64,000 nt of DNA, from assembly GCF_028714655.1 (NCBI RefSeq), contig NZ_JAQTLY010000002.1, positions 1 to 64,000 of the forward strand. Reading direction: 5' to 3'. Each line of letters starts with the position of its first letter. The stretch's first letter is position 1. Below the pieces are notes generated by a model. The model was given only the letters and a program-made list of their open reading frames with translations, was not told the origin of the DNA and ran no database searches. This stretch comes from Sulfurimonas sp. GTDB lineage: Bacteria > Campylobacterota > Campylobacteria > Campylobacterales > Sulfurimonadaceae. Position numbers and translations under genes: made by a program. Positions 33,318 to 39,789 of this stretch are shown in pieces.

Positions 33318-35003
33318 TCATTTATCTAAACTAAAATGTCTCTCTAAATCCGCATTATATAAAAGTATAGGAACGACTATCAAAGATGCAACTACTGCCG
33401 CAATCGTTCCAAATATAAGAGCGACTCCAAGACCGCCAAATACTGCATCTCCCGCCAAAAGCGTTGAAGCCAGTATTATCGCTGCAGCAGTTAAGAAAAT
33501 AGGTTTTGCACGCGTTGCCGTTGCATAAGCAATAGCTTCTGCTTTGTCCATTTTGCCGTCTTTCATTAAAGAAGCGGTAAAGTCGATTAAAAGAAGCGAA
33601 TTTCTTGAACTTATCCCTATAAGGGCGATAAAACCTATAAGCGAAGTAGCCGTTAAGAAAAATGTATCCGTACTAAAGAGATCCATAATCCAGTGTCCTA
33701 CGATAACACCGATAATAGATAAAAACGAGCCTAAAAGTATAATTCCGCTTAGCGTATAGCTTTTATAGTAGATTACCATTAATAAAAATATAAGTACAAG
33801 CGCAGCAATAAAAGCAGCACCTAACTCTACAAAAGTATCAAGCGTTACTTTCATCTCTCCATCCCAATTTAATTTATATGCATTTTTAGAGTTTTTGTCG
33901 GTAAGTATAAGGTTAAATAGCCCGATTTTTTTAATATCGTATCTGTCGCTAAATGTATCTAAGATTGCATTTCTCGCCTCCATAAGAGGGTACACCTGTG
34001 AAACCATATCGGTCTCTGCCATAACATTTGTCATTCGATGGAGATTTTTGCTCATAATCATAGGATTTGATTTTTTAGGCACGATTTTTACCAGCTCCGT
34101 AATGGATGTCATCATCCCCGTATGACTCATAAGTTTTAGTGATGAGAGTTTTGCTTTTATAGCATTTATATCTTTTGATGAAAACTTTTTTGACTCAAGA
34201 CTAAGCGAGAGATATATAGGAATTTGATCATTAACTACATCAGAGTTTTTAACGGCAATCTGCATACCCTCAAATGCCAAGTAGAGGATGTCGTTTAACT
34301 GCTTTACATCTACGCCGGATAGTGCAACTTTTATGCTGTCGACCTCGACTTCTATTTTGTCGTAAATTTCATCTTGCATGACTTCTATATCTACTAAGCC
34401 CTTAGTATTTTTAAATACGCTCTCAACCCTAGATGATAATTCTCTCATACCCTCTATATCGTCTCCGTATACTTCTGCTACTATTGCTGCTAAAACAGGA
34501 GGTCCTGCCGGAGGCTCTACAAATGAAATTGTTGTTTTATCTTGCAATGAAGCACACTTTTGTACAATATCCGGTCTCATTCTTTGCACCATTAAGTACG
34601 ATGGTTCGCCTCTATGATGTTTTTTTGATAGATTTACTACGATTTCGGCTACATTTTCAGAATTTTTAAAGTGCGAACCTTTGATAAGTCCCGCAAAATC
34701 AAGAGGTGCTCCCATACCTAAAAATACTTCAAAATCTTCGACTTCTTTCTCTTTTTTGATAAATTCGCCTACGCACTCCGTCACTTCTTTTGTCTGCTCT
34801 ATCGAGCTTCCTTCGGCTAATGTCGTATAAATCGTAAAAGTGTCGTTGTTTTTACCAGGCAGCATTTTTGCTAAAACCATTTTGCTAGGAGCTATCATCA
34901 GCACCGATAAAACAAAGGCAGCGAAAGTTGCCCCAAGGATTATATTTCTCTTGGCAGGACTCTGGATACCGTTAAAAACGGCATTTTGAAATTTTTTAAA
35001 CAT
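33318..35003 (-). CDS. RND efflux pump, C-terminal half as a separate protein
   Basis: The 561 residues match the second half of an RND inner-membrane pump: TM7 at about 20-40, a periplasmic porter/docking region to about 390 and TM8-12 (GISSRNSLLLIDF is the TM10 segment). Family members normally have about 1000-1050 residues in one chain. The ATG at 35003 overlaps the stop of the N-terminal half (TAATG), and a strong AAGGAG site lies at 35012-35017, eight bases upstream, so this half is initiated in its own right. The two products probably assemble into one pump. The substrate is unknown. Confidence 0.88.
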   Translation of the reverse strand: MFKKFQNAVFNGIQSPAKRNIILGATFAAFVLSVLMIAPSKMVLAKMLPGKNNDTFTIYTTLAEGSSIEQTKEVTECVGEFIKKEKEVEDFEVFLGMGAPLDFAGLIKGSHFKNSENVAEIVVNLSKKHHRGEPSYLMVQRMRPDIVQKCASLQDKTTISFVEPPAGPPVLAAIVAEVYGDDIEGMRELSSRVESVFKNTKGLVDIEVMQDEIYDKIEVEVDSIKVALSGVDVKQLNDILYLAFEGMQIAVKNSDVVNDQIPIYLSLSLESKKFSSKDINAIKAKLSSLKLMSHTGMMTSITELVKIVPKKSNPMIMSKNLHRMTNVMAETDMVSQVYPLMEARNAILDTFSDRYDIKKIGLFNLILTDKNSKNAYKLNWDGEMKVTLDTFVELGAAFIAALVLIFLLMVIYYKSYTLSGIILLGSFLSIIGVIVGHWIMDLFSTDTFFLTATSLIGFIALIGISSRNSLLLIDFTASLMKDGKMDKAEAIAYATATRAKPIFLTAAAIILASTLLAGDAVFGGLGVALIFGTIAAVVASLIVVPILLYNADLERHFSLDK

Positions 35004-36586
35004 TAATGTTTCTCCTTGTCATGGAAAACCGGTTTTTTCAACATTCTAGCCGCTAAATAGGGTGTAAAAATGTACGCTACAAAAAGCGAAGCGATAAGAG
35101 CAACAGGGACATTCGCCGGAATGGGTTTCATAAACTGCCCCATCATCTGTCCGACAAAAGCCATAGGTACCATAGTCATAATAATTGCTAAAGTTGCAAT
35201 ATTTGTAGGCGGTCCGATCTCATCAGTCGCTTCAACCATAATATCATCTACACTTTTGTTCGCAGACTCTTTTGAATGGAAATGTCTATGGATATTTTCA
35301 ATTACGATAATTGCCGCATCGACCAAAAGCCCGAGTGAGAGCAAGAATGCAAAGAGGGTTATACGATTTATGGTCTGTCCGGTGAGATAAGCGACAAAAA
35401 GCGTAATAGCAAGAATTGCAGGAACGGTAAATGTAACTATAAGAGACTCTCTCCATCCAAGAACTAAAACAAGCAGTATGGCAATAATTACGATAGATAA
35501 AAGAAGATGGTAAACCAACTCGTTAACGGCTTCATTTGCCCTCTCACCGTCATTTCTCGTAATAGAGTAGTTAATTCCGTTGTTATGCAGGTACTCTTTA
35601 TAACTCTCTAGTTCCGTTTTAACGGCATTTGCTATAACTACCGCATTTGTGCCTTGAAGCTTTGATACGGTAAGTGTTACCTGATTTTGCAGAGGCGAAA
35701 AATTTCCGCTTTCATCTTTTTTGCTGATAGTTGCAGACTTAAAGTTTTGTATATCGTGCGAGTATGCAATTTTTGCAACTTGTTTTAAGTAAATCGGTGA
35801 ACCCATATATTGCGCAACAATGATATTACCGATATCTTCAGCGCTCTCTATCGCATTTTTAACACCCAGCATAATTATCTCATTATCTTTAGTTCTGTTT
35901 TTAACGGCGGGAACGCTGTATGAGAGTGATTGAACCCCTTGGACTATCTGACCCATAGATATATTGTAACCTGAGAGTTTGTTTAGGTCTACTTCAACAT
36001 TGAATTGATGTTTGTTTCCGCCTTTTAATTCGGTTACCGCAACATTTTGCAGTCCGTTTATGCGGTGCTGTATATCTTTTACTTTGTCATAGAGTTCTGT
36101 TTTGCTCATATTTTCGTCTTTAGAGTAAAACGCAACGGAGACGACCGGAATATCTACATCAATGTCGAGAGGTTTGATAATCGGGTTCATAGCTCCTTTT
36201 GGAAATATGTCGTAATTTTGCATAATTTTGTCATAAACTTTAAGGTTAGAGTCCTCTTTTTTCTCTCCGATAAAAAATGCGGCATTGACGATTCCGACAT
36301 TATCCATCGCCATAGATGAGATATTTTCTACCCCTTTTACCTCTTTTAGTTTTCTCTCTAACGGTTTTACGATTACTTTTTCAATCTCTGCGGCACTGGC
36401 TCCCGGCAGTGCGACTATGACGGTTGATCCGCTTACTACCATTTGAGGGTTTTCTTCGCGCGGCATAATGCTCAGTGCGAGATAGCCTATGCACAGAAGA
36501 AAAACGCCAAGAACGATACTAAGGGGGTTTCTTAAAAACCCTGCTGCCAGTTTTCCTGCAATATCTGTCGGTTTATAACTATTCAT
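35003..36586 (-). CDS. RND efflux pump, N-terminal half as a separate protein
   Basis: The 527 residues hold TM1 (about 18-36), the periplasmic porter domain and TM2-6, ending soon after TM6 with LAARMLKKPVFHDKEKH. The TM4 proton-relay segment is GLLVDAAIIVIENIHRH with a single Asp (D423) followed by Ala. Drug pumps of the AcrB type have two adjacent Asp; the single-Asp form resembles CusA-type metal pumps. The cut falls in the cytosolic loop between the two pseudo-repeat halves, so no domain is lost. It is the third gene of the TolC/MFP/RND operon. Confidence 0.88.
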   Translation of the reverse strand: MNSYKPTDIAGKLAAGFLRNPLSIVLGVFLLCIGYLALSIMPREENPQMVVSGSTVIVALPGASAAEIEKVIVKPLERKLKEVKGVENISSMAMDNVGIVNAAFFIGEKKEDSNLKVYDKIMQNYDIFPKGAMNPIIKPLDIDVDIPVVSVAFYSKDENMSKTELYDKVKDIQHRINGLQNVAVTELKGGNKHQFNVEVDLNKLSGYNISMGQIVQGVQSLSYSVPAVKNRTKDNEIIMLGVKNAIESAEDIGNIIVAQYMGSPIYLKQVAKIAYSHDIQNFKSATISKKDESGNFSPLQNQVTLTVSKLQGTNAVVIANAVKTELESYKEYLHNNGINYSITRNDGERANEAVNELVYHLLLSIVIIAILLVLVLGWRESLIVTFTVPAILAITLFVAYLTGQTINRITLFAFLLSLGLLVDAAIIVIENIHRHFHSKESANKSVDDIMVEATDEIGPPTNIATLAIIMTMVPMAFVGQMMGQFMKPIPANVPVALIASLFVAYIFTPYLAARMLKKPVFHDKEKH

Positions 36587-38829: not shown

Positions 38830-39789
38830 TTACAAGAAAGATTTAAGAAAAATATTAAGATATTTTTGGTTAAATTTATTTACCATATCCGTATCGCGCA
38901 TCATCATTTTTAAAGCATTAAAAGTAGTGTAGTTTTGTCTGTGCGGTCTGTTGTTGGTTAGCGCGTCAAAAACATCGCATATAGCTAAGATAGAAGCAAA
39001 ATTGCTTATATCACTGCCGGTTAATTGATTTGGATAACCGCTTCCGTCAAACCTCTCATGATGGTGCATAACGGCATTTATGATATATGGATCATGAATT
39101 TTGTTTTGATTTAAAATATCGACGCTGTACTGGCTGTGTTTTTGTATCAGCTTCATCTCTTCTTGAGTCAATTGAGACTCTTTTTGAATAACGGTTTCGT
39201 CGATTTTTTTTAAACCGACATCATGCAACAGTGCAGCTACGCCTATTTTAAGTAAATCGTCATCATTAAATTTAAGCATATTGCTAAGAGAGACGGCATA
39301 TATGGCTACATGCAGGGAGTGGCTGTACAGCACATGGTCATTTTCAAAATAAGGCATCGTATTTTTTAAAAATTTTTCATCATATTTTATTAGGTAGATG
39401 ATGGATTTTACGATAAGTTCAACGCATTCTAAATGTATTATGTTTTCATGGTTGCTTGAGTACATATCAAATAATTGTTCGCTTATTTTATAAAGAATCA
39501 TAACCCTTTTTTGCGGATTGTCCCTGTTATGTCTTATATAATGTTTTAAACTTTCGCAAGAGAGTATCTGTTTGTCTTCATCTTTTTTAGAGATATATAA
39601 GCTTTCTTGATTTTTAAGTTTAGCGTGTAAGCTCTCGGATATTAAAGTCCCAGCCTCTATGATAATGACAAAATCATCATCTTTTTTGATAAAAATATCA
39701 AACGGAGCGACACATCCTATCCTTAGAAGGTTTATATCAAGCGATAGGTAAGAGTTTGAATAATTTAATTTTGTTTTTATGACTTTCAT
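38830..39789 (-). CDS. HD-GYP domain protein, probable cyclic-di-GMP phosphodiesterase
   Basis: The 319 residues have an N-terminal region of about 145 residues of unknown type (a beta-rich part with a GTLISESLHAKLKN-like segment common in HD-GYP proteins) and a C-terminal HD-GYP domain. The catalytic signatures HD at 189-190 and HHERFDGSGYP at 243-253 are intact. Such enzymes degrade c-di-GMP to GMP and tend to favour motility over adhesion, which fits the LapA-like system 4 kb away only by inference. No receiver domain is present. Confidence 0.88.
   Translation of the reverse strand: MKVIKTKLNYSNSYLSLDINLLRIGCVAPFDIFIKKDDDFVIIIEAGTLISESLHAKLKNQESLYISKKDEDKQILSCESLKHYIRHNRDNPQKRVMILYKISEQLFDMYSSNHENIIHLECVELIVKSIIYLIKYDEKFLKNTMPYFENDHVLYSHSLHVAIYAVSLSNMLKFNDDDLLKIGVAALLHDVGLKKIDETVIQKESQLTQEEMKLIQKHSQYSVDILNQNKIHDPYIINAVMHHHERFDGSGYPNQLTGSDISNFASILAICDVFDALTNNRPHRQNYTTFNALKMMMRDTDMVNKFNQKYLNIFLKSFL

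Follow-up and report, generated by a model that had tools for sequence, protein, structure and literature searches.

RND-N and RND-C, two overlapping genes of a Sulfurimonas contig, very probably encode a two-subunit RND permease, which arose by one ancient fission in the Campylobacterota, is made by coupled translation and would act as an (N·C)3 proton-driven exporter. The genes lie in the window, i.e. the whole stretch of 64,000 nucleotides that was analysed. Computation established the fission and its conservation, the separate initiation signals, the selection on both genes, the half-folds, the relay residues and the operon. None of the tests made spoke against this reading. RND pumps are taken as homotrimers, or as heterotrimers of the MdtBC type, of full-length chains that originated when two duplicated halves fused. 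A stable and phylum-wide return to separate halves represents a natural system. Each half is separately expressible, taggable, mutable and titratable, which makes the division of labour between the pseudo-repeats directly testable.

No description of an AcrB-type permease that is naturally split was found in the open-access literature searched; a subscription journal may contain an earlier one. MdtBC and SecD/SecF come closest as precedents. In genome and efflux papers on Arcobacter butzleri, a 2021 review on tripartite efflux and an RND survey (PMC10872679), no mention of a split permease turned up with the terms searched. The survey discarded matches aligned over less than 80% or shorter than 852 aa (PMC10872679). 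Half-length chains would be lost by this filter, which constitutes a blind spot for half-length RND chains. Single halves are already known in RefSeq under a generic name, while the recognition of a clade-wide fission is new.

Gene order, half-folds and substrate class

The operon is transcribed from the minus strand of the Sulfurimonas contig in the order TolC-type factor, adaptor, RND-N, RND-C (Table 1). Adaptor and outer-membrane factor are encoded together with the permease, as in tripartite systems. The gene order of the window is kept in 51 of 52 loci of relatives, and the operon is often located beside rpsA-serA, with serA near 30 of 58 loci. Coordinates re-read from the sequence reproduced the description in the original prediction: two genes of 527 and 561 codons overlapping as TAATG, an AAGGAG eight bases before the second ATG, a TGA six codons upstream of this ATG and the TM4 motif VDAAI in RND-N. 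Owing to the TGA in its frame, RND-C has no start farther upstream.

Table 1. Positions of the genes, junction signals and relay codons in the window.
Feature	Position	Strand	Description
TolC-type outer-membrane factor, 456 aa	37382..38752	(-)	Profile matches; upstream in 51/52
Periplasmic adaptor (RND_mfp / HlyD_D23), 262 aa	36597..37385	(-)	Profile matches; directly upstream of split pairs in 51/52
RND-N	35003..36586	(-)	ATG start, 527 aa, TAA stop at 35005-35003; TM1-6 and N-half porter subdomains
RND-C	33318..35003	(-)	ATG at 35003-35001, 561 aa; cytosolic helix, TM7-12, C-half porter subdomains
Stop/start overlap TAATG, RND-N/RND-C	35001..35005	(-)	One base common to both genes
Shine-Dalgarno AAGGAG of RND-C	35012..35017	(-)	Inside RND-N end; 8 bases 5' of second ATG
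TGA in RND-C frame	35019..35021	(-)	Sixth codon upstream of RND-C ATG
Asp423 codon, RND-N (TM4; AcrB D407 position)	35318..35320	(-)	Asp in 126/126 split pumps
Arg467 codon, RND-C (TM10; AcrB K940 position)	33603..33605	(-)	Arg in 126/126 split pumps
Arg498 codon, RND-C (AcrB R971 position)	33510..33512	(-)	Arg in 122/126; other 4 are gaps
Thr505 codon, RND-C (AcrB T978 position)	33489..33491	(-)	Thr in 115/126; other 11 are gaps

An HD-domain (HD_5) protein is encoded directly upstream of the operon in the window (38830-39789, minus strand). The protein probably does not belong to the pump system, because such a gene was near the operon in only one of 58 relatives. Five further RND permeases of the same Sulfurimonas genome are ordinary single chains of 1018-1042 aa, so that one assembly contains RND genes of both kinds, split and intact. 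Weak extra ACR_tran matches elsewhere in the genome (G000:C1:176736-178133) resemble SecD/SecF by the profile region matched.

The Pfam profile ACR_tran (PF00873, profile length 1021, cut-off 28) matched RND-N with 253 bits over profile positions 11-493 and RND-C with 134 bits over positions 528-1016. From these complementary ranges it follows that the cut lies in the cytosolic linker between TM6 and TM7 and that no domain was lost, as had been foreseen. The usual single chain of about 1000 residues is absent here, and the Pfam family itself does not demand one chain. AlphaFold2 models were built per half, as single chains, from 31-row alignments. They reached a pLDDT of 75 and 74 and a pTM of 0.59 and 0.53 for the two halves. 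Each modelled half consists of six TM-type helical stretches around two porter regions, and a short helix precedes TM7 at the start of RND-C. In Foldseek comparisons, AcrB, AcrD, CmeB and OqxB matched nearly the entire length of each half, with a TM-score by query of 0.6-0.7, covering about half of the target of ~1030 aa. By these models, both halves are complete RND half-folds. The split would be compatible with an unchanged topology, both termini of each chain being placed in the cytosol.

What we take to be the AcrB relay positions (D407, K940, R971, T978), located here via AcrB motifs, are divided between the chains in an alignment of 126 split pumps: the Asp is on RND-N, and Arg, Arg and Thr are on RND-C. 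The TM4 Asp and the basic and Thr residues in TM10-TM11 that mark an RND relay are all present, with Arg replacing Lys at the K940 position. As the relay residues reside on different chains, both chains should be needed for the pump.

The single Asp in VDAAI had been read in the original prediction as a feature of metal pumps. A heavy-metal exporter of the HME type (CusA/CzcA-like), an assignment that concerns the substrate and is compatible with fission, is also suggested by 111 bits of the CzcB/NccB adaptor model (TIGR00999) on the adaptor and by the His-rich N-chain ends of several relatives. The CusA/CzcA model (TIGR00914), however, gave 136 and 52 bits on the N and C halves against a cut-off of 701 and ranked below two other RND models. 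RND_permease_2 scored 230 and 96 bits, and the AcrB-type HAE-1 model (TIGR00915) 176 and 62 bits, its curated cut-off of 940 being set for whole chains, while halves were scored here. The motif itself varies. VDAAI becomes VDDAI in some split relatives, VDSA, VDGA and VDDA are found among the fused ones, and Asp occupies the second motif position, which differs among fused pumps too, in 13 of the 126 split members. The top structural matches are AcrB, AcrD and CmeB. VDAAI is not supported as a sign of a metal pump, and an HME exporter is unlikely. By profile scores, the pump appears nearer to the HAE-like multidrug permeases (RND_permease_2) than to CusA/CzcA.

Initiation at the junction and proposed assembly of the permease

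Junction features were compiled for 115 split junctions, those first tabulated. Ahead of the second gene, 111 of them have an SD-like site, compared with 12.7% in random stretches of the same genes, and RND-C starts with ATG in 100. The C frame is shifted relative to the N frame by +2 in 92 cases and by +1 in 12; the remaining 11 are in phase 0. N genes terminate with TAA, TGA or TAG. The dominant offsets, -1 (TAATG type) and -4 (ATGA type), are those of ordinary coupled genes. The loci L010-L016, L019, L037 and L039 are split in frame, with a TAA or TAG inside a single search match. Length and sequence of the linker vary freely, in split and fused members alike.

A full-length protein could in principle still arise if ribosomes shifted frame in a programmed way or read through the stop at the junction, and the common relative phase of 92 junctions, as in TAATG or ATGA overlaps, would fit such a process. 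Coupled genes, however, usually stand in just this phase. Each of the three phases is represented, with several different offsets and with every kind of stop among the in-frame cases, and recoding would have to operate in each phase, which makes it very unlikely. No common slippery sequence was noticed by eye at the junctions, the linker is free to vary, and a start codon with SD site is kept instead. The original prediction of a real fission with separate initiation is backed by the three phases and the SD conservation, as well as by the recurrence and the purifying selection described below.

His-rich cytosolic tails of the N chain occur just before the stop at L121, L122, L128, L134, L135, L138, L190 and others, and His-containing linkers are also present in fused pumps of the family-level group f5. 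A metal binding by these tails and linkers is possible. The RND-N tail in the window, FHDKEKH, has only two His.

In the proposed mechanism, the operon would yield the outer-membrane factor, the adaptor and then the N and the C half. Both halves would be made by termination-reinitiation at the overlapping stop and start codons, presumably resulting in near-equal amounts. Each half would insert with both ends in the cytosol, RND-N with TM1-6 and RND-C with TM7-12. One N and one C chain may pair to one RND protomer, and three protomers would form an (N·C)3 trimer of heterodimers with a presumed 3:3 stoichiometry. The pump is probably composed of six chains, not three. It would work as an ordinary proton-driven rotary exporter by proton/substrate antiport, using a proton relay common to both chains: the TM4 Asp on N, the TM10 Arg and the TM11 Arg and Thr on C. 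Adaptor and TolC would complete a normal tripartite system. With relay positions split between the chains and cytosolic termini, the N·C protomer, three per pump, would be the best model. The split might further allow a combinatorial or controlled assembly, either by cross-pump pairing of N and C where two split pumps are present or by the supply of one half gating the assembly. Such a use of the split is improbable; if true, it would be an RND machine with exchangeable halves.

The AcrB/MexB-type permeases (PF00873; HAE-1) share with the split pump the fold, two homologous halves, the relay residues and an operon with adaptor and TolC. They differ in forming a homotrimer of one ~1000-aa chain, where two chains are present here, and the split pump has an Arg for the TM10 Lys and one Asp in TM4. 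MdtB and MdtC constitute an RND transporter from two different gene products, both full-length (PMC7015380). Two gene products per transporter are also found in the split pump, whereas its half-permeases originate from fission and the full-length permeases MdtB and MdtC from duplication.

SecD and SecF are separate chains in E. coli. They belong to the RND superfamily and are fused in Thermus (PMC8277102). Like the pump described here, they comprise two chains of six TM helices in some bacteria and occur elsewhere as one fused chain; unlike it, they act as a protein-translocation accessory without tripartite partners. SecD/SecF models gave about 23-31 bits on the N half and none on the C half, compared with 253 bits for ACR_tran. 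Since half-size subunits with a 2 x 6 TM set-up exist in the superfamily with SecD and SecF (PMC8277102), RND-N and RND-C might be two independent half-size pumps, each forming its own homo-oligomer. This arrangement is hardly credible: the N and C genes are adjacent and co-inherited, the relay Asp is present on N only and its basic partners on C only, and the fused sister pumps bear both relay parts in one chain.

Distribution and descent of the split form

Relatives were gathered from whole genomes, named contigs and plasmids. They provided 164 distinct junctions, 151 of them split at the same loop and 13 fused. Within the Campylobacterota, the split members reach 26 genera and 9 families. 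The recurrence in 151 distinct relatives places the pattern far beyond chance. A listing of genomes with the two-gene form, suggested along with the original prediction, was obtained from an even draw of 249 phylum genomes. The N half was a separate frame (519-604 aa) in 66 of these, which represent 26 genera and 9 family codes, and was part of a 1156-1181-aa frame in seven f5 genomes. Family codes f2 and f3 had no match at the search threshold among the genomes listed from this draw. Fused genes in all close relatives had been named as the finding that would speak against the prediction. The opposite was observed: all close relatives are split, and the nearest fused pumps, with 46-51% identity in the N half, come mainly from a different family-level group.

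Split assemblies carry the names Sulfurimonas, Sulfuricurvum, Sulfurovum, Hydrogenimonas, Nitratiruptor, Nitratifractor and Sulfurospirillum. In the isolates Sulfurovum mangrovi and Sulfuricurvum kujiense, both halves are annotated as 'efflux RND transporter permease subunit'. The S. kujiense genes are located on the complete circular plasmid pSULKU01; hence plasmids are a further vehicle of the split form. The pump encoded there (L177, 5992-9259) is a second and more distant one of the split kind. Its neighbours are TetR, MarR and Crp/Fnr regulators, and the opposite strand carries a TolC/adaptor pair close by.

Substitution rates were determined according to Nei-Gojobori against close relatives (88-98% N identity), where dS was estimable. 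The dN/dS values were 0.02-0.05 for RND-N and 0.04-0.07 for RND-C, with many dS near saturation, so that they indicate the order of magnitude only. Judged by these ratios, both genes are under purifying selection. Where RND genes are split in just one genome, the cause is frequently an indel from sequencing or assembly or a pseudogene of recent origin, and the C gene of L183 does have a broken frame. Such an origin is refuted by the fact that the split recurs across families, in 151 distinct relatives, among them two named isolates, one of these represented by a complete circular plasmid. It is also opposed by the low dN/dS of both genes and the conserved SD site and start codon. At L183 (G129:C1), which belongs to the genus of the window, the C gene is apparently frame-broken by decay or assembly error, and the N gene is intact.

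A maximum-likelihood tree was calculated from 64 concatenated N and C sequences, 54 of them split (quick search method, SH-aLRT support, no bootstrap). All 54 split pumps formed one clade (SH-aLRT 100) on a long stem (1.54). Outside this clade were fused pumps of Campylobacterota (f5, L185) and, outermost, fused pumps from plasmids of Roseibium, Polaromonas, Pseudanabaena, Paracoccus and Sphingopyxis. Trees of N only and of C only, with the three longest rows left out, contained the same single change between split and fused. Path lengths of N and C correlated with r = 0.94, an agreement that simple vertical co-inheritance gives as well. No re-fusion was seen in the tree of the 54 split and the fused outgroup pumps. 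With the split pumps in one clade and fused outgroups, the fission is placed once, followed by retention. A one-time fission, retained since and also through paralogous copies (e.g. in G001 with L061 and L014), is the simplest reading of the tree.

The fused sisters (L040-L044, L197 and L198 of f5; and L185) are the nearest fused relatives and have the same kind of cytosolic linker. They differ in being a single chain of 1126-1181 aa, in contrast to two chains here. In f5, one match was present in each of 21 genomes, nearly always as a fused frame of full length; in the remaining ones the frame seemed truncated at contig ends or was not resolved. Among the split members, L191 and L192 (G387, G403) have an N gene that is ~50-60 residues longer. 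Their matches are interrupted at about query residue 290, pointing to an insertion in the porter region of the N half.
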